Positions 28,540 to 47,371 of a DNA stretch of 64,000 bases are shown here, piece by piece. How positions within the stretch are numbered: the stretch's first letter is position 1; each line of letters starts with the position of its first letter. The notes below the pieces were generated by a model. That model ran no database searches. It had not been told where the DNA came from and saw only the letters and a program-made list of their open reading frames with translations. The position numbers and the translations under genes were made by a program. Location of the stretch: IMG/VR virus record IMGVR_UViG_3300036770_008729, positions 217,115-281,114 of that record, one strand, 5' to 3'. Source of the stretch: a virus.

Positions 28540-28560
28540 ATATATTCAAAGAACTATTTG

Positions 28561-28635
28561 TCGTTAGGGTAGGACTCGAACCTACAATCTTTCGGGATTT
28601 TCACCCGAACGCTCTATCAAATTGAGCCACCTAAC
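28561..28635 (-). tRNA. tRNA-Phe-like (GAA)
   Basis: Cloverleaf with D-arm GGCTCAATTTGATAGAGC, anticodon region CGGGTGAAAATCCCG and T-arm GTAGGTTCGAGTCCTAC. The anticodon loop is unusual: the TGAAAA core lacks the normal spacing, and the 1-72 acceptor pair is mismatched. Confidence 0.6.
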
Positions 28636-28642
28636 TATAATA

Positions 28643-28686: not shown

Positions 28687-28730
28687 TTAAACAATACAAA
28701 AAAACGTAGCGGATTTTTGTATTGTTTAAA
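28687..28730. repeat. Palindromic repeat, copy 4 (inverted)
   Basis: Arms TTTAAACAATACAAAAA/TTTTTGTATTGTTTAAA around the core CGTAGCGGA; inverted relative to copies 1-3. It overlaps the stop of the recombinase gene and could act as its terminator. Confidence 0.7.
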
Positions 28731-29526
28731 TTGGTAGATTTACTTTGGATAATATTTGGTTCGAAACATGAGTGTAAATTTCAGTAGTTTTTACATTTGA
28801 GTGACCTAATATTTTCTGAATTACTCTTAAATCAGTACCATTTTCCAATAGATTTGTTGCACAACTATGTCTCAATTGGTGAATGTGATATTTTTCACCC
28901 AAATATTTTTTAACAATTTGATTACAGCTACCAGAACTATATTGTAAACTATTTTGACCATTGAAAAGGTATTCTTTTGGTCTATATTCTTTAAAATATT
29001 CTCTAAGTAATTCTAATATTTTCTGGGATAGGGGTAAGACTCTATCTTTTCTACCTTTAGCATTTTTAATATGAATAATCATTCTTTTGGAATCGATATC
29101 TTCAATTTTAAGGTTAATTACTTCCGATACTCTTAATCCGACTGAATAAGTTAAAGATAATATCGTTTTATGTTTAAGATTAGTAATTTTAGATAATTGT
29201 TCTTTAATGTAATCACCATCAATAACCTGTGGTAACTTCTTCTCAGATTTGGGTCTTTTGAAACTAACCTTATCATATTTCTTATTAAGTCCGAATTTGT
29301 AGAGGAAACGGATTGCGTTAATAACCTGATTTTGTTGTGAAACAGAAGTAAAACTATAAGTATCTAAATATGATTGAAAATCATTAGATGTGAGTCTAGT
29401 TGGTGAAATTTTTATTGTAGCTAAAAATTGATTAATATAATGGAGATAGGATTTTATTGTCCTATCTGAGTAATTTAAATACTTCAATTTTTGATTACAA
29501 ATTTCGTAATAATCTGTTTTTTTCAT
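28726..29526 (-). CDS. Tyrosine recombinase (XerD/integrase type)
   Basis: 266 residues: an N-terminal SAM-like core-binding domain (to about 95), then the catalytic domain with Arg132 (GLRVSE), Lys near 157-160 (KGRKDR), His216-x-x-Arg219 (HQLRH), His242 (GHSNV) and the nucleophile Tyr251 (IYTH). All catalytic residues are present. It lacks the extra helix typical of integron IntI enzymes. It sits at one end of the cassette-like array 29586-34200 and reads away from it, the arrangement of an integron integrase. Confidence 0.9.
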   Translation of the reverse strand: MKKTDYYEICNQKLKYLNYSDRTIKSYLHYINQFLATIKISPTRLTSNDFQSYLDTYSFTSVSQQNQVINAIRFLYKFGLNKKYDKVSFKRPKSEKKLPQVIDGDYIKEQLSKITNLKHKTILSLTYSVGLRVSEVINLKIEDIDSKRMIIHIKNAKGRKDRVLPLSQKILELLREYFKEYRPKEYLFNGQNSLQYSSGSCNQIVKKYLGEKYHIHQLRHSCATNLLENGTDLRVIQKILGHSNVKTTEIYTHVSNQILSKVNLPI

Positions 29527-40892: not shown

Positions 40893-40906
40893 ATTTATAT
40901 TTACAG

Positions 40907-40978
40907 TAGCCCGTACGAGAATCGAACTCGTGTCTACACCGTGAAAGGGTGCCGTCCTAACCCCTAGACGAACGGGCC
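40907..40978 (-). tRNA. tRNA-Glu (TTC)
   Basis: Anticodon arm CACCCTTTCACGGTG; T-arm ACGAGTTCGATTCTCGT. Nearly identical to the tRNA-Glu at 44884, with compensatory change in the acceptor (GCCCGT/ACGGGC). Confidence 0.9.
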
Positions 40979-43319: not shown

Positions 43320-43676
43320 ATGGCTCATTTTGCAAGAATAAATAATAATAATGAAGTAATAGAAGTTGTTGTAATAAATAACGGGGTTTTATTAGATGAT
43401 AATGGATTAGAATCCGAAGTTAAAGGCATTGAGTTCTGTAAAACTCTATATGGGTTAGATAGTAATTGGATACAAACTTCATATAATTCAAAATTCCGTG
43501 GAGTTTTTGCAGGTATAGGTTTTACCTATAATGTAGAGAAAGATGTTTTTACACCACCAAAGCCATTTGAATCTTGGTCATTAAGTAGTGATGGGTTTAC
43601 CTGGTTATCACCAGTTCCTTATCCAAGTGATGGTGGTTTTTATATTTGGAGTGAACAAAACTTAAATTGGATTTAA
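43320..43676 (+). CDS. Virion/tail-associated protein, 'MAHFA' family
   Basis: 118 residues; paralogue of 9216 (MAHFARINNN, TSYNSKFRGVFAGIGFTYN, PVPYPSDGG). Confidence 0.65.
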   Translation: MAHFARINNNNEVIEVVVINNGVLLDDNGLESEVKGIEFCKTLYGLDSNWIQTSYNSKFRGVFAGIGFTYNVEKDVFTPPKPFESWSLSSDGFTWLSPVPYPSDGGFYIWSEQNLNWI

Positions 43677-43681
43677 AATTG

Positions 43682-43754
43682 TCGGGAAGACAGGACTTGA
43701 ACCTGCGGCCTCCTGGTCCCAAACCAGGCGATCTACCAACTGATCTACTTCCCG
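43682..43754 (-). tRNA. tRNA-Pro (TGG)
   Basis: Acceptor CGGGAAG/CTTCCCG, anticodon arm CTGGTTTGGGACCAG. Third tRNA of attenuated unit 4. Confidence 0.92.
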
Positions 43755-43762
43755 AAAATTGG

Positions 43763-43834
43763 CGGTCTATGACGGTTACGATCCGTCTACTTCTGCGTGA
43801 CAGGCAGATATGATAGCCACTTCACCAATAGACC
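43763..43834 (-). tRNA. tRNA-Asp (GTC), swapped T-loop
   Basis: Anticodon arm TCTGCCTGTCACGCAGA; T-arm GACGG-ATCGTAA-CCGTC, so A54 and U58 replace the usual U54 and A58. Second tRNA of unit 4. Confidence 0.9.
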
Positions 43835-43838
43835 TTAG

Positions 43839-43909
43839 TTGTCAGAGATGGAATCGAACCACCATTTTGTGAGCCAAAATCACATGTCCTCCCTTTAGAC
43901 GACCTGACA
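43839..43909 (-). tRNA. tRNA-Gln (TTG)
   Basis: Acceptor TGTCAGG/TCTGACA, anticodon arm TGTGATTTTGGCTCACA. First tRNA of unit 4. Confidence 0.85.
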
Positions 43910-43920
43910 GTATAAAAACA

Positions 43921-43955
43921 AAAAACCCAGTTAATCTGAGACTAACTGGGTTTTA
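43921..43955 (-). terminator. Attenuator terminator of tRNA unit 4
   Basis: Minus strand AACCCAGTTA/TAACTGGGTT plus T-run. The 5' arm AGTTAGTC (43940-43947) is complementary to GACTAACT in the leader ORF (43992-43999), giving an alternative antiterminator. Confidence 0.8.
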
Positions 43956-43974
43956 CAATGTTTATATTAATATC

Positions 43975-44067
43975 TTAAATTGTAAATACATAGTTAGTCC
44001 TTACGGCACGATCTTGGTCTTGCGGTTGAGGTTGATTAACTGGAGTATTTACAATCATATTTTTCAT
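43975..44067 (-). CDS. Attenuator leader peptide of the Gln-Asp-Pro tRNA operon
   Basis: 30 codons. The core QPQPQDQD (plus an earlier Pro) uses only Gln, Pro and Asp, exactly the three tRNAs downstream. An early CCAGTTAATC (44034-44043) resembles terminator arm 1 and can pair with the later segment, giving the four-region logic of a biosynthetic attenuator. A TAATATATA motif precedes the ATG. Starts MKNM, like the unit 2 peptide. Confidence 0.75.
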   Translation of the reverse strand: MKNMIVNTPVNQPQPQDQDRAVRTNYVFTI

Positions 44068-44069
44068 TA

Positions 44070-44079
44070 TAGTATATAT
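44070..44079 (-). promoter_or_regulatory. TAATATATA promoter motif of tRNA unit 4
   Basis: Minus strand CTAATATATACTATA directly before the leader peptide ATG. Confidence 0.5.
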
Positions 44080-44247
44080 TAGAATATTTTCTTTTGTTTA
44101 GACAAATATAGAAAAAGTTTTAAATAAATTGAAATTTTTTTTAAAAAAGACAAAACAAAGAAAAAATAATTGATATATAGTGTATATATTGAAACCCAAT
44201 AAAAGAGGAATATATAAACGGGGTTCTTCTGAAATTCAATATTTATT

Positions 44248-44278
44248 TTTGAAAATTAAAAATTAGTAATTATATTTG
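44248..44278 (+). promoter_or_regulatory. Bacteroidota-type promoter of tRNA unit 1
   Basis: TTTG, exactly 19 bases, TATATTTG; leader peptide ATG 4 bases later. The 44080-44247 stretch upstream holds no gene, only a degenerate GATATATAG motif near 44173. Confidence 0.7.
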
Positions 44279-44282
44279 TAAA

Positions 44283-44363
44283 ATGAAAACAACATTAAAC
44301 ATAGCGTGTTATTATGAGGGCGGGAATCCAATTCCGGTCAGACTAACAATTGCAATGTTTTAA
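44283..44363 (+). CDS. Attenuator leader peptide of the Tyr-Ile-Gly-Ala(-Glu) tRNA operon
   Basis: 26 codons. The core IACYYEGG is encoded ATA GCG TGT TAT TAT GAG GGC GGG; downstream are tRNA-Tyr, -Ile(TAT, reading AUA), -Gly, -Ala, then -Glu. Only Cys is not matched within the unit. TCAGACT (44338-44344) near its end pairs with AGTCTGA in the terminator 5' arm. Confidence 0.75.
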   Translation: MKTTLNIACYYEGGNPIPVRLTIAMF

Positions 44364-44385
44364 GTGTTTCATAAAACAAAACAAT

Positions 44386-44418
44386 AACCCAGTCTGATTA
44401 ATTAGATTGGGTTTTTTG
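44386..44418 (+). terminator. Attenuator terminator of tRNA unit 1
   Basis: AACCCAGTCT/AGATTGGGTT plus T-run. Its 5' arm can instead pair with the leader ORF. Confidence 0.8.
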
Positions 44419-44432
44419 TTTTAAACACATTT

Positions 44433-44526
44433 GGGAGGCTTCGCCACAAAGAGTCTGTAAAACTCTTCTTCGTTAACAAAATGGTGGCTGGTCTGGAGTT
44501 TAGAGGTTCGATTCTTCGGTCTCCCA
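44433..44526 (+). tRNA. tRNA-Tyr (GTA), long variable region
   Basis: Acceptor GGGAGGC/GTCTCCC, anticodon arm AGAGTCTGTAAAACTCT. The variable region is about 35 nt, much longer than the usual tyrosine arm. Confidence 0.75.
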
Positions 44527-44534
44527 CAAAATAT

Positions 44535-44608
44535 AGGTGAGTAGCTTAGATGGTAAAAGCATGTGTCTTATACACACAAGATAGTGGGATCGTTACCCAC
44601 CTCACCTA
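44535..44608 (+). tRNA. tRNA-Ile (TAT), swapped T-loop
   Basis: Acceptor AGGTGAG/CTCACCT, anticodon arm TGTGTCTTATACACACA. UAU is rare; bacteria usually read AUA with lysidine-modified CAU. T-arm GTGGG-ATCGTTA-CCCAC. Confidence 0.88.
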
Positions 44609-44615
44609 CAGAAAA

Positions 44616-44687
44616 GCGAGTATCGTATAATGGTCATTACTCCAGTCTTCCAAACTGGAGATGTCAGTTCGATTCTGACTACTCGCT
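44616..44687 (+). tRNA. tRNA-Gly (TCC)
   Basis: Acceptor GCGAGTA/TACTCGC, anticodon arm CCAGTCTTCCAAACTGG. Confidence 0.92.
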
Positions 44688-44693
44688 CTAATT

Positions 44694-44771
44694 TGGGGTT
44701 ACATGTTCCAAGGCTTTGGCGAGACTGCTTTGCAAGCAATCTGTGGTGGGTTCGATTCCCACTAGCTCCAC
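44694..44771 (+). tRNA. tRNA-Ala (TGC)
   Basis: Anticodon loop TTTGCAA with an imperfect stem; extended D-region. Acceptor TGGGGTT/AGCTCCA uses G-U pairs. Confidence 0.7.
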
Positions 44772-44790
44772 AAAAAAAATTGAAAAAAGA

Positions 44791-44822
44791 TTTGGTAGAA
44801 TAAAAAACTCTTCTTATCTTTG
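44791..44822 (+). promoter_or_regulatory. Bacteroidota-type promoter inside tRNA unit 1
   Basis: TTTGGTAGAATAAAAAACTC...TATCTTTG, 20-base spacer. Very similar in sequence to the element at 46173. Confidence 0.65.
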
Positions 44823-44883
44823 TAATCAATTAAAACGAAGGTTGGTAATCTACTGTAAAACTCTGGTTTCCTTCTTAAATAAT

Positions 44884-44955
44884 GGTCCGTTCGTCTAGGG
44901 GTCAGGACGACACCCTTTCACGGTGTAGACACGAGTTCGATTCTCGTACGGACTA
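44884..44955 (+). tRNA. tRNA-Glu (TTC)
   Basis: Near-identical to the copy at 40907; anticodon arm CACCCTTTCACGGTG. Confidence 0.9.
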
Positions 44956-45010
44956 CAGCTCATCAGAGTAATTAACTGATGAAGGAGGAACCGTCTTCGA
45001 AGCGGTAAAA

Positions 45011-45106
45011 TGATTAGAGTGTAGGCTGCACACTGGCTCTTGAGTCTTAGACGCGGGTTTAAGATATCGGAGCCGGAGGTTAAAGGATCGTGTCCTTTTT
45101 AATCAG
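45011..45106 (+). ncRNA. tRNA-like RNA with enlarged anticodon loop
   Basis: Acceptor TGATTAG/TTAATCA, D-arm GTGTAGGCTGCACAC, T-arm AAAGG-ATCGTGT-CCTTT. The anticodon stem GGCTC/GAGCC encloses about 30 nt with an inner helix TCTTA/TAAGA, as if an insertion sat in the anticodon loop. Amino acid not assignable. Confidence 0.5.
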
Positions 45107-45135
45107 CAAATAAAAAATAAAGAGAGAAAAACTTC

Positions 45136-45145
45136 TTAATATATA
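45136..45145 (+). promoter_or_regulatory. TTAATATATA promoter of tRNA unit 2
   Basis: Within GAGAAAAACTTCTTAATATATAG, which recurs almost exactly at 46221-46244 upstream of unit 3. Confidence 0.6.
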
Positions 45146-45162
45146 GTAATATAATTAATACA

Positions 45163-45267
45163 ATGAAAAATATGAATCTAAATATCAATTTAATGCTCAC
45201 GGTGGTGAATACGTTATGTATTAGACCTACTGAGGGTGAATTTCTATTTAGAGAATTAAGTATGTAA
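45163..45267 (+). CDS. Attenuator leader peptide of the ten-tRNA operon (unit 2)
   Basis: 34 codons. Residues 3-21, NMNLNINLMLTVVNTLCIR, use only Asn, Met, Leu, Ile, Thr, Val, Cys and Arg: exactly the eight amino acids of the ten tRNAs that follow. Codons match isoacceptors (CTA and TTA for Leu TAG/TAA, ATC/ATT for Ile GAT, AGA for Arg TCT). CTGAGGGT (45230-45237) pairs with ACCCTTAG of the terminator. Confidence 0.8.
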   Translation: MKNMNLNINLMLTVVNTLCIRPTEGEFLFRELSM

Positions 45268-45292
45268 AATATTTAACTTTAATAAAGTGATT

Positions 45293-45326
45293 AACCCTTA
45301 GATAGAAAAAATCTAAGGGTTTTTTG
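45293..45326 (+). terminator. Attenuator terminator of tRNA unit 2
   Basis: AACCCTTAGAT/ATCTAAGGGTT plus T-run. Confidence 0.85.
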
Positions 45327-45335
45327 TTTTATACT

Positions 45336-45407
45336 GGAGTAGTAGCTTAATGGGGAAGCAATCGGCTGTTAACCGATAGATTATAGGTTCGAGTCCTATC
45401 TACTCCG
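45336..45407 (+). tRNA. tRNA-Asn (GTT)
   Basis: Anticodon arm ATCGGCTGTTAACCGAT; acceptor GGAGTAG/CTACTCC. Confidence 0.93.
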
Positions 45408-45413
45408 CAACAC

Positions 45414-45487
45414 TGATGTGTAGCTCAAATGGTCAGAGCGCGAACCTGATAAGTTCGAGGTAGTGGGATCGTTACCCACCACATCAA
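45414..45487 (+). tRNA. tRNA-Ile (GAT), swapped T-loop
   Basis: Anticodon arm CGAACCTGATAAGTTCG; T-arm GTGGG-ATCGTTA-CCCAC. Confidence 0.9.
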
Positions 45488-45496
45488 CAAATAAAT

Positions 45497-45575
45497 GCCC
45501 CAATAACCGAGGTTGCCTTCTAAGCAACTAATCGTAACGGAGTGGAAGATATAGGTTCGAATCCTATTTGGGGTA
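45497..45575 (+). tRNA. tRNA-Arg (TCT), abnormal D-arm
   Basis: Acceptor GCCCCAA/TTGGGGT, anticodon arm GTTGCCTTCTAAGCAAC. Only about 9 nt stand where the D-arm should be, and the variable region is long (about 23 nt). Confidence 0.75.
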
Positions 45576-45580
45576 CAAAT

Positions 45581-45661
45581 GCCGAGATGGCGGAACGGTA
45601 GACGCGCTAGTCTTAGGAACTAGTGTCTAAAGGCGTGAGGGTTCGATTCCCTCTCTCGGTA
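45581..45661 (+). tRNA. tRNA-Leu (TAG)
   Basis: Anticodon arm CTAGTCTTAGGAACTAG, class II variable arm. Confidence 0.93.
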
Positions 45662-45668
45662 CAAAAAT

Positions 45669-45741
45669 AGTTCTGTAGCTCAGAGGAACGAGCAACTCGC
45701 TTACATCGAGAAGGTCACTGGTTCGATCCCAGTCAGAACTA
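45669..45741 (+). tRNA. tRNA-Val (TAC)
   Basis: Anticodon arm ACTCGCTTACATCGAGA; acceptor AGTTCTG/CAGAACT, shared with tRNA-Val(GAC). Confidence 0.92.
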
Positions 45742-45748
45742 CAAATAT

Positions 45749-45821
45749 GACACTGTGTCTGAATGGCTTAGGTCCCGGTCTGCAAAATCGTGGTATGTCG
45801 GTTCGAATCCGACCAGTGTCT
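45749..45821 (+). tRNA. tRNA-Cys (GCA)
   Basis: Anticodon arm CGGTCTGCAAAATCG; acceptor GACACTG/CAGTGTC. Confidence 0.88.
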
Positions 45822-45827
45822 CAGATA

Positions 45828-45901
45828 AGCTTCTTAAGCATTAATGGTGATGCGCTAGTCTTGTAAACTAGAGAAATCGGATCGTTACCGGTAAGAAGCT
45901 C
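45828..45901 (+). tRNA. tRNA-Thr (TGT), swapped T-loop
   Basis: Anticodon arm CTAGTCTTGTAAACTAG; T-loop ATCGTTA. Confidence 0.9.
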
Positions 45902-45906
45902 AAAAT

Positions 45907-45978
45907 AGTTCTGTAGCTTAATGGTAGAGCACTTCCTTGACATGGAAGAGGTAGTCGGATCGTTACCGACCAGAACTA
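45907..45978 (+). tRNA. tRNA-Val (GAC), swapped T-loop
   Basis: Anticodon arm CTTCCTTGACATGGAAG; T-arm GTCGG-ATCGTTA-CCGAC. Confidence 0.9.
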
Positions 45979-45985
45979 CAAAAAT

Positions 45986-46076
45986 GCTCCAGTGGCGAAA
46001 CCTGGTTGAAACGCATAGGACTTAAAATCCTATACCCTTGAGGTAAACATTGTCGGTTCGAATCCGACCTGGAGTA
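45986..46076 (+). tRNA. tRNA-Leu (TAA)
   Basis: Anticodon arm TAGGACTTAAAATCCTA; class II variable arm. Confidence 0.92.
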
Positions 46077-46082
46077 CAAAAT

Positions 46083-46152
46083 GCCGCGGCTTAGTGGAAA
46101 AGAACCTAATCTCATAAGTTGGGTTAAATGAGTTCGACCCTCATACGCGGTA
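46083..46152 (+). tRNA. tRNA-Met (CAT)
   Basis: Anticodon loop CTCATAA in a stem with G-U pairs; acceptor GCCGCGG/ACGCGGT. Short (70 nt). Initiator, elongator or Ile2 type cannot be told. Confidence 0.8.
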
Positions 46153-46172
46153 CAAAAAATAAATTAAAAATA

Positions 46173-46204
46173 TTTGGTAAATTCAAAACTTCTTCCTTTA
46201 TTTG
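46173..46204 (+). promoter_or_regulatory. Bacteroidota-type promoter of tRNA unit 3
   Basis: TTTGGTAAATTCAAAACTTC...TTTATTTG, similar to 44791-44822. Confidence 0.5.
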
Positions 46205-46233
46205 TGTAAAATAAGAAAACAGAGAAAAACTTT

Positions 46234-46243
46234 TTAATATATA
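46234..46243 (+). promoter_or_regulatory. TTAATATATA promoter of tRNA unit 3
   Basis: 6 bases before the leader peptide ATG; a host-type promoter lies 30 bases upstream, so two promoter types feed the unit. Confidence 0.6.
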
Positions 46244-46249
46244 GAAATT

Positions 46250-46345
46250 ATGACAACAATTCGCTCACATAAACATTTTAGTAAATCGAGTAAGTGGTTT
46301 AATACCCGCAGGTTCGGTACTAATAGCGTATTGTTTAAATTTTAA
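46250..46345 (+). CDS. Attenuator leader peptide of the Phe-His-Trp-Lys-Arg-Ser operon (unit 3)
   Basis: 31 codons. The contiguous RSHKHFSKSSKWF uses only Arg, Ser, His, Lys, Phe and Trp, exactly the assignable tRNAs downstream. Arg is CGC, matching tRNA-Arg(ACG); Ser is TCA/AGT, matching TGA and GCT. GGTTCGG (46311-46317) pairs with CCGAACC of the terminator. Confidence 0.8.
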   Translation: MTTIRSHKHFSKSSKWFNTRRFGTNSVLFKF

Positions 46346-46371
46346 TTTAATTATAATAACAATATTCAATT

Positions 46372-46402
46372 AACCCGAACCGTAAAAAGTTCGGGTTTTT
46401 TG
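46372..46402 (+). terminator. Attenuator terminator of tRNA unit 3
   Basis: AACCCGAAC/GTTCGGGTT plus T-run. Confidence 0.85.
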
Positions 46403-46416
46403 TTTTAAACATATTT

Positions 46417-46491
46417 TGGAATCTAAGCTAATCAGGTGAAAGCACTGGACTGAAAATCCAGAGAGTCCGGATCGTTACCGGAAGATTCCAC
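46417..46491 (+). tRNA. tRNA-Phe (GAA), swapped T-loop
   Basis: Anticodon arm CTGGACTGAAAATCCAG; T-arm TCCGG-ATCGTTA-CCGGA. Confidence 0.92.
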
Positions 46492-46495
46492 AAAT

Positions 46496-46569
46496 GGTGA
46501 ATGTAGCTCAATTGGTAGAGCGCTTGATTGTGGTTCAAGAGGTAGCGGGATCGTAACCCGTCATTTACC
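46496..46569 (+). tRNA. tRNA-His (GTG), swapped T-loop
   Basis: Anticodon arm CTTGATTGTGGTTCAAG, extra G-1 opposite C73 as required for tRNA-His; T-loop ATCGTAA. Confidence 0.92.
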
Positions 46570-46577
46570 CAAATATA

Positions 46578-46650
46578 CACACGATACAGACAAGGTGTCG
46601 GTCAGGTCTCCAAAACCTCGATGGGTGAGTTCGATTCTTACATCGTGTGC
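46578..46650 (+). tRNA. tRNA-Trp (CCA)
   Basis: Anticodon loop CTCCAAA in stem AGGT/ACCT; acceptor CACACGA/TCGTGTG. Confidence 0.9.
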
Positions 46651-46685
46651 AAAAAAAAGAATAAGAAAATGAAACGAAAACGTTA

Positions 46686-46724
46686 AGTGATGACTAAAGC
46701 TATTAGGTCATCACTCATAAAAAA
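46686..46724 (+). terminator. Hairpin, terminator-like, within tRNA unit 3
   Basis: AGTGATGAC/GTCATCACT followed by an A-run; may be a processing site rather than a terminator. Confidence 0.5.
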
Positions 46725-46727
46725 TAT

Positions 46728-46800
46728 GACTTCGTAGCTTAGTAGGTAGAGCACCTGGCTTTTAACCAGGGGGTCGCGAGTTCGAATCTCGCCGGAGTCA
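46728..46800 (+). tRNA. tRNA-Lys (TTT)
   Basis: Anticodon arm CCTGGCTTTTAACCAGG. Confidence 0.93.
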
Positions 46801-46812
46801 CAAAAATATAAT

Positions 46813-46947
46813 GGGGATGTAGCTCAGTGGTAGAGTTTTAAAATATCTCTTTTGAGGTTTTACCTCTTGAAAAGGAGTGTTGATTAAAAGAGTTACTTCG
46901 TTTGAATTGAAATCAAAAGGTCGTGGGTTCGAATCCCACCATCCCCG
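46813..46947 (+). tRNA. Interrupted tRNA (135 nt), anticodon unassigned
   Basis: Acceptor GGGGATG/CATCCCC, D-arm GCTCAGTGGTAGAGT and T-arm CGTGGGTTCGAATCCCACC are intact. About 60 nt with a strong hairpin (CTCTTTTGAGG/CCTCTTGAAAAGGAG) separate the D-arm from an anticodon-like arm TTTGAATTGAAATCAAA. Could be an intron or a tRNA-like RNA. Confidence 0.6.
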
Positions 46948-46952
46948 CAAAT

Positions 46953-47025
46953 AGTCTTATCGTCTAATTGGAAAGACGTCTGAATACGAATCAGGAGATT
47001 GAGGGTTCGAGTCCTTCTAAGACTA
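46953..47025 (+). tRNA. tRNA-Arg (ACG)
   Basis: Anticodon arm CTGAATACGAATCAG; acceptor AGTCTTA/TAAGACT. A34 would need deamination to inosine. Confidence 0.88.
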
Positions 47026-47029
47026 CAAT

Positions 47030-47113
47030 GGAGAGCGTCCGGATGGTCGAGGATGGCGTCTTGAAAACGTTCTGGGTGTAATAGCTTCTGGGGTTCGAAT
47101 CCCTAGCTCTCCG
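47030..47113 (+). tRNA. tRNA-Ser (TGA)
   Basis: Anticodon loop CTTGAAA; acceptor GGAGAGC/GCTCTCC; class II variable arm. Confidence 0.9.
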
Positions 47114-47118
47114 CAAAA

Positions 47119-47204
47119 GGAAAATAAACTAATCAGGGTATTAGTCACGATTGGAAATCGTTGAGTTCGTTAATTTGGATGTGGTTCGAGTCCACTGTTT
47201 TCCG
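47119..47204 (+). tRNA. tRNA-Ser (GGA)
   Basis: Anticodon arm ACGATTGGAAATCGT; acceptor GGAAAAT/GTTTTCC; class II variable arm. Confidence 0.88.
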
Positions 47205-47208
47205 CTAA

Positions 47209-47295
47209 GGAAGATTGACCGAGAGGTAAGGTACCAGTTTGCTAAACTGAGGTTAGGTCTTAAAGCCTAGACAGGATCGTTACCTGTATCTTCCG
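47209..47295 (+). tRNA. tRNA-Ser (GCT), swapped T-loop
   Basis: Anticodon arm CAGTTTGCTAAACTG; T-arm ACAGG-ATCGTTA-CCTGT; class II variable arm. Confidence 0.9.
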
Positions 47296-47371
47296 CATTT
47301 TGATACAATCTATTTTTTTATAATAATTATAATATTATATATACATAACTAAAATAACTTTAGTTTAAATT

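Follow-up and report, generated by a model that had tools for sequence, protein, structure and literature searches.

Putative leader-peptide attenuators of tRNA operons and aminoacyl-tRNA synthetase genes in huge-phage genomes

A 64,000-nucleotide stretch of viral DNA (hereafter the window: positions 217,115 to 281,114 of IMG/VR record IMGVR_UViG_3300036770_008729, forming the terminal part of this 281-kb record) carries four tRNA units at 43681–47296, each consisting, in this order, of an open reading frame (ORF) of 26–34 codons, an intrinsic terminator and a series of tRNA genes (Table 1). An earlier reading, made from the sequence alone, had proposed that each ORF encodes a leader peptide built from the amino acids of the tRNAs that follow, and that the units are controlled by attenuation. 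When the open reading frames were rechecked, the leader ORFs were found exactly where that reading had placed them, and a terminator does stand between ORF and tRNAs in all four units, with near-identical tails throughout. Most of the tRNAs that it had named were detected by prediction tools; Arg(UCU), Ala, Trp and Met were recovered under relaxed settings only. The identities of Arg(UCU) and Met(CAT) in unit 2 come from reading the anticodon loop by eye, and the tRNA-Met gene is 76% identical to a tRNA-Met of a relative. Similarly, the anticodon GTA of the unit 1 tRNA-Tyr (about 44428–44527) could be read in the window by eye only; in relatives, tRNA-Tyr is confirmed by tool in units of this type.

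Table 1. Positions of the tRNA units and their leaders in the window (unit types A–F are explained in the text)
Feature	Position	Strand	Remarks
Unit 4 (type F) leader ORF MKNMIVNTPVNQPQPQDQDRAVRTNYVFTI	43975..44067	-	control codons QPQPQDQD at 44011-44034
Unit 4 antiterminator segment GGACTAACT	43992..44000	-	complementary to terminator 5′ arm AGTTAGTCT
Unit 4 intrinsic terminator	43922..43954	-	15-bp stem, T-rich tail
Unit 4 tRNA-Gln(TTG), tRNA-Asp(GTC), tRNA-Pro(TGG)	43681..43909	-	
Bacteroidota-type -7 box TATATTTG, promoter candidate	44103..44110	-	upstream of unit 4 leader; consensus match only
Unit 1 (types C+D) leader ORF MKTTLNIACYYEGGNPIPVRLTIAMF	44283..44363	+	
Unit 1 control codons ATA GCG TGT TAT TAT GAG GGC GGG	44301-44324	+	
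Unit 1 antiterminator segment GGTCAGACT	44336..44344	+	complementary to AGTCTGATT
Unit 1 intrinsic terminator	44386..44413	+	
Unit 1 tRNAs Tyr-like, Ile(TAT), Gly(TCC), Ala(TGC), Glu(TTC)	44428..44956	+	
Unit 2 (type E) leader ORF MKNMNLNINLMLTVVNTLCIRPTEGEFLFRELSM	45163..45267	+	control codons N3-R21 at 45169-45225
Unit 2 antiterminator segment CTGAGGGT	45230..45237	+	complementary to ACCCTTAG
Unit 2 intrinsic terminator	45293..45321	+	
Unit 2 tRNAs Asn(GTT), Ile(GAT), Arg(TCT), Leu(TAG), Val(TAC), Cys(GCA), Thr(TGT), Val(GAC), Leu(TAA), Met(CAT)	45336..46153	+	
Unit 3 (types A+B) leader ORF MTTIRSHKHFSKSSKWFNTRRFGTNSVLFKF	46250..46345	+	control codons R5-F17 at 46262-46300
Unit 3 antiterminator segment GGTTCGG	46311..46317	+	complementary to CCGAACC
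Unit 3 intrinsic terminator	46372..46397	+	
Unit 3 tRNAs Phe(GAA), His(GTG), Trp(CCA), Lys(TTT), insertion-bearing Ser(TGA)-like, Arg(ACG), Ser(TGA), Ser(GGA), Ser(GCT)	46418..47296	+	

The peptide cores quoted in the sequence-only reading are correct, with 19/19, 13/13, 8/8 and 7/8 residues matching the downstream tRNAs in units 2, 3, 4 and 1, respectively. We took as test region not a chosen core but everything from codon 3 up to the antiterminator segment described below, and over these whole control regions the four window leaders match their own tRNA sets at 14/18, 8/15, 19/20 and 9/20 positions (5.0, 4.7, 8.1 and 2.4 expected), the true pairing of leaders and tRNA sets ranking best of all 24. 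Taken alone, unit 1 is weak in composition (P = 0.06) and draws its support from the related units.

A distant blastn search led to two huge-phage genomes with homologous units, LR745206.1 (635 kb) and LR756502.1 (642 kb). Further IMG/VR records came from a DNA pattern of one leader type (type E) and from leader alignments, so that the set comprises 15 distinct records of 25–642 kb, that of the window included. Leaders were found in them by structure alone, by homology to a leader, or as an ORF and terminator ahead of a tRNA cluster. In all, 63 leaders precede tRNA operons and 14 precede aminoacyl-tRNA synthetase genes. The tRNA operons fall into six conserved unit types: A (Phe/His/Trp/Lys), B (Arg/Ser), C (Glu/Tyr), D (Ile(UAU)/Gly/Ala), E (Asn/Arg(UCU)/Leu/Val/Ile(GAU)/Thr/Met/Cys) and F (Pro/Asp/Gln), some of which are merged, as A+B in window unit 3 and C+D in unit 1. 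For type F leaders the alignment search was unproductive, there being no conserved stretch. A leader precedes 33 of the 33 multi-tRNA units of types A–F in the first seven records, and 30 more were found in the others; before most tRNA units the leader ORF has 24–38 codons. At lone tRNA genes outside these units no leader was found. The match of peptide to tRNA set, looked for in the related phages, is retained there along with the terminators. For the 33 leaders of the seven fully scanned records, the summed z was 127.7, against a permutation mean of 4.1 (standard deviation 13.2, maximum 68.8), and when leaders were reassigned to tRNA sets within their genomes 100,000 times, the observed match was never reached; at the level of unit types, the true assignment ranks first of 720. 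Chance composition and cherry-picked cores are ruled out by the whole-control-region test and the permutations. Moreover, a structure detector blind to composition returned 50 distinct sites in the 2.78 Mb of the seven genomes, 30 of which have a tRNA within 900 nt downstream (as against 80 of 4230 random points, or 1.9%) and 8 more of which lie before synthetase genes; first-order shuffles of the same genomes gave 0 sites. That such leaders might be a general trait of phage tRNA arrays was considered and rejected, given a T4-like tRNA cluster, the single cluster compared, with neither terminator nor leader.

The correspondence is also visible in the choice of codons. Isoleucine is written ATA 16 times and ATY 3 times in the leaders of C/D units, which encode tRNA-Ile(UAU), versus 0 and 13 times in E units, which encode tRNA-Ile(GAU) (P = 3e-6), and arginine is written CGN 9 times and AGR 3 times in A/B units (tRNA-Arg(ACG)) versus 0 and 8 times in E units (mostly Arg(UCU); P = 0.001), although the sequences counted are related and their independence is therefore overstated. 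CGC is the usual Arg codon of A/B leaders, yet it makes up 0.7% of Arg codons genome-wide. Rare codons are enriched among matched residues (z −13.9), and also in unmatched residues (−6.1) and in the antiterminator part (−8.4), for which reason rare-codon bias, at one time considered as the main signal, is counted as supporting evidence only. Units with tRNA-Gln alone have leaders beginning MNNLVQQVQQQQINL or MRTTTQYQQQQQINP (QQVQQQQ, QYQQQQQ), and Ser/Arg tRNAs standing alone follow a leader containing SSSRSS. As read from the sequences, the leader match follows the splitting of operons and extends to the level of isoacceptors.

A further element, absent from the description given by the sequence-only reading, is a segment of 7–9 nt located 3′ of the control codons and inside each window ORF, which pairs with the 5′ arm of the unit's own terminator. 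Such an antiterminator is present in 4/4 window units and in nearly all relatives, and since it shares the terminator 5′ arm, the two structures are mutually exclusive. It could be that the hairpins simply insulate the tRNA units against transcription arriving from upstream and that the ORFs are meaningless, their composition being incidental; intergenic terminators are common and short ORFs are plentiful in A+T-rich DNA. However, composition, codons and positions match over 77 leaders, the antiterminators lie within the ORFs and the peptides are conserved across samples; the permutation and position tests already contradict this explanation, and we find it hardly credible.

We folded the free RNA downstream of a ribosome set on each codon in turn. 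The antiterminator had a probability of about 1 as long as the A-site lay on control codons, falling to 0 directly after them, the switch falling, for example, at IIII|R before an isoleucyl-tRNA synthetase (IleRS) gene and at QYQQQQQ|I before tRNA-Gln. Among 69 leaders aligned on the antiterminator, codons match the downstream set in 76% of cases at 18–23 nt and 79% at 12–17 nt before the antiterminator, and in 34% at 6–11 nt and 14% at 0–5 nt, with 18% expected. A ribosome covers about 12–13 nt past the first base of its A-site, so that the control codons end where stalling would start masking the antiterminator. One may ask whether the transcript instead binds uncharged tRNA directly, in which case the ORF would be irrelevant. 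T-box riboswitches are known to control synthetase genes through uncharged tRNA, activating them when the charged cognate tRNA runs short; a T-box RNA differs, however, in binding the tRNA itself without any leader ORF. The many in-frame cognate codons instead of one specifier, the presence of start and stop codons and the footprint distance to the antiterminator make a T-box-like device very improbable, and the Rfam T-box covariance model found no match over 43600–47360 even at E = 1. Another possibility is that the peptides work as products, for arrest or regulation, and that their composition reflects this. Leader peptides are indeed conserved in phages from different samples, with tails such as NYVFTIS or PTEGxxLF, but for the most part these tails coincide with the stretch of RNA that has to pair with the terminator, and a functional peptide would not predict a composition that tracks the tRNA set and the identity of codons; we give this possibility almost no weight.

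The same device stands before synthetase genes, where the leaders carry runs of the cognate amino acid: IIII before IleRS (two phages), VVVNV and VVVV before ValRS, LLLPL and LLLL before LeuRS, NNRN before AsnRS, DD before AspRS (three), HTYK before HisRS (two), FNFFF before a PheS-like ligase, and HFHFHF before a HisRS and PheS-like pair. In genome G009, synthetase genes also accompany the operons of their cognate tRNAs: ThrRS and AsnRS genes are located within the E unit, LysRS in A and ProRS in F, and SerRS adjoins the A/B units. PheS-like ligases (L076:4318-5397, minus strand, and L339:1471-2571) exceed the cut-off for NF051887, 'PheS-related mystery ligase SrmL', with 423 and 434 bits, and the leaders FNFFF and HFHFHF, the latter shared with HisRS, suggest that SrmL ligases act with phenylalanine in these phages. 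Leaders can also be read as annotations of the genes downstream, as in the case of this ligase. A conserved Lys/Arg-rich protein of 65–67 amino acids was also seen between a HisRS-type leader and a HisRS-like gene in two phages (L104:5208-5411 and its equivalent in W02).

Antiterminator, stall folding, isoacceptor match in relatives and cognate runs before synthetase genes support the attenuation proposed earlier, and we consider it very probable that each unit is a ribosome-mediated transcription attenuator of a tRNA or synthetase operon, triggered by shortage of its own charged tRNAs. The sequence anatomy, the complementarity, the codon and isoacceptor match, the geometry, the conservation and the parallel device before synthetase genes are established; that leaders are translated, that termination is conditional and that feedback occurs is what we infer, and so is any physiological trigger. 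Transcription would begin upstream of the leader ORF, whose control codons are those of the tRNAs encoded or charged downstream. With ample charged cognate tRNA, the ribosome would pass the control codons and mask the antiterminator as the terminator 5′ arm emerges, whereupon the terminator would form and no tRNAs would be made. Should any single cognate charged tRNA be scarce, the ribosome would stall while about 12 nt or more still separate its A-site from the antiterminator downstream; this segment, left free, would pair with the terminator 5′ arm before the 3′ arm exists and let the polymerase enter the tRNA genes. The control would follow an OR logic, across 2–8 amino acids per unit in most cases, and because the product of the operon is tRNA itself, the loop would act as a feedback controller of tRNA supply.

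Several points weigh against this reading. The leaders' own antiterminator score of 11.2 exceeds the mean of 6.9 obtained after codon shuffling, but the 71 leaders compared were gathered partly by an antiterminator criterion, so that the comparison is biased; the four of the window, which score 10–12, were not gathered in this way. By a simple ungapped score, the antiterminators of the F unit of G001, the B unit of G009 and the Val, Leu and His/Phe leaders of G009 are weak. When the full hairpin is present, the terminator usually beats the antiterminator at equilibrium; the decision must then be kinetic, and a kinetic switch would require that transcription and translation be coupled in these hosts. 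The leader stop codon often lies about 25 nt beyond the antiterminator, so that a terminating ribosome would itself leave the antiterminator uncovered, and a protecting hairpin of the 1:2 type, which would keep leaders terminated when they go untranslated, is seen in some leaders and absent in others. In RNA without a ribosome, the antiterminator forms in about two thirds of the tRNA leaders, and protection was found in 4 of 8 synthetase leaders. Finally, the records are mutually related, and the unit types are partly dependent.

Granting the attenuator, its signal during infection could be amino-acid starvation, with low charging, instead of absence of the tRNA molecule; by making more tRNA and synthetase the phage would then contend for the few amino acids left. 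Attenuators sense charged tRNA rather than tRNA abundance, synthetase genes are under the same control, and the choice of codons could also be explained by selective charging of isoacceptors (PMC1183508). Against this, extra uncharged tRNA would give no relief, and isoacceptor-specific codons better fit the sensing of particular tRNAs; we regard starvation as a possible, on balance unlikely, signal. Alternatively, the main role could be counter-defence, the units firing when host nucleases cut particular tRNAs. Phage tRNAs are known to evade tRNA-cutting defences (PMC10264068, PMC11555353), and OR logic would fit; but nothing in the present analysis links the composition of the units to known nuclease targets, and groups such as Asn/Leu/Val/Thr/Ile/Met are broad; we regard this role, too, as possible and on balance unlikely. 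In a wider form, the attenuators would make up a genome-wide system in which every group of tRNAs and several synthetases are separately attenuated and released one by one as charged isoacceptors deplete, repairing exactly those tRNAs lost to host defence or phage demand, a proposal on which we find our judgement evenly divided. Host anticodon nuclease, suggested in the sequence-only reading, is a possible trigger.

Bacteria apply leader-peptide attenuation to amino-acid synthesis genes, and in Escherichia coli the PheRS operon pheM-pheST is under a Phe-rich leader peptide. The cognate-rich leaders before the IleRS, ValRS, LeuRS, AsnRS, AspRS, HisRS and PheS-like genes of the phages resemble the latter; unlike pheM-pheST, the phage leaders form a genome-wide set that includes tRNA operons. 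As in trp and his attenuation (trpL, hisL; modelled in PMC1183508), there is a leader ORF with regulatory codons, the antiterminator and terminator exclude each other, and the position of stalling is decisive. The phage leaders differ from these in being found in phage genomes and targeting tRNA genes instead of amino-acid biosynthesis, in addressing 2–8 amino acids per leader in most units, through isoacceptor-specific codons, and in often lacking the protecting hairpin. The study of huge phages by Al-Shayeb et al. 2020 (PMC7162821) describes genomes of the same general kind, with many tRNAs and up to 15 synthetases; it covers genes and not regulation, and the strings 'leader' and 'attenuat' are absent from its main text. 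The sequence-only reading knew of no case for phage tRNA operons. Nor did our search of open-access papers, from which subscription papers and preprints were largely absent, turn up leader-peptide attenuation acting on tRNA genes or in any virus. The class of mechanism is classical, while the tRNA-gene targets, the multi-amino-acid OR logic and the viral setting did not appear in the papers searched. For about fifty years the role of phage tRNAs has been disputed (PMC10264068), and a regulator that names tRNAs codon by codon makes this debate directly testable.

A promoter had been reported ahead of each unit. This is only partly borne out: 29 of 40 leaders have a TAnnTTTG box of the Bacteroidota type no more than 160 nt away, where about 0.14 would be expected in that length, and units 2 and 3 have no strict match to that box. 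A scan for sigma-70-type promoters was uninformative, with 19 matches against 20 expected. A conserved (A/T/G)ATATATA element 12–30 nt before the start codon occurs in 55 of 71 leaders and also ahead of 27% of other ORFs; it might serve as a phage promoter or in initiation. The phage AsnRS is nearest to Bacteroidota enzymes, at about 40% identity, and together with the TAnnTTTG boxes this affinity makes a Bacteroidota host likely. An origin of the leader system in the host was rejected: of 80 AsnRS loci from bacteria, most of them Bacteroidota, none has a leader by the same detector, and no relative of the type A leader turned up in the collection of bacterial and archaeal genomes searched.

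Some of the tRNA genes of the window are unusual. The tRNA-Ser(TGA)-like gene of unit 3 at 46811–46950 (46877–46946 according to ARAGORN under relaxed settings) has about 65 nt of extra sequence before the anticodon arm and weakly matches the tmRNA model (21.6 bits, under the cut-off). Its motif GAGTTACTTCGT is also found near similar genes in relatives (L009, around 9317), which suggests a recurrent insertion in tRNA genes. After the tRNA-Glu of unit 1, tRNA-like pieces at 44957–45105 (a CTGCACA loop and a AATCAGCA end) might constitute an odd tRNA, perhaps for Cys, which, if real, would account for the sole unmatched residue of the unit 1 leader. A lone tRNA-Glu at 40906–40978, on the minus strand and thus opposite to unit 1, lies outside the four leader units and is about 95% identical to the tRNA-Glu of unit 1. 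An isolated and possibly degenerate tRNA-Phe with anticodon AAA, located at 28560–28636 on the minus strand, adjoins an ORF for an integrase-like tyrosine recombinase (28726–29526).

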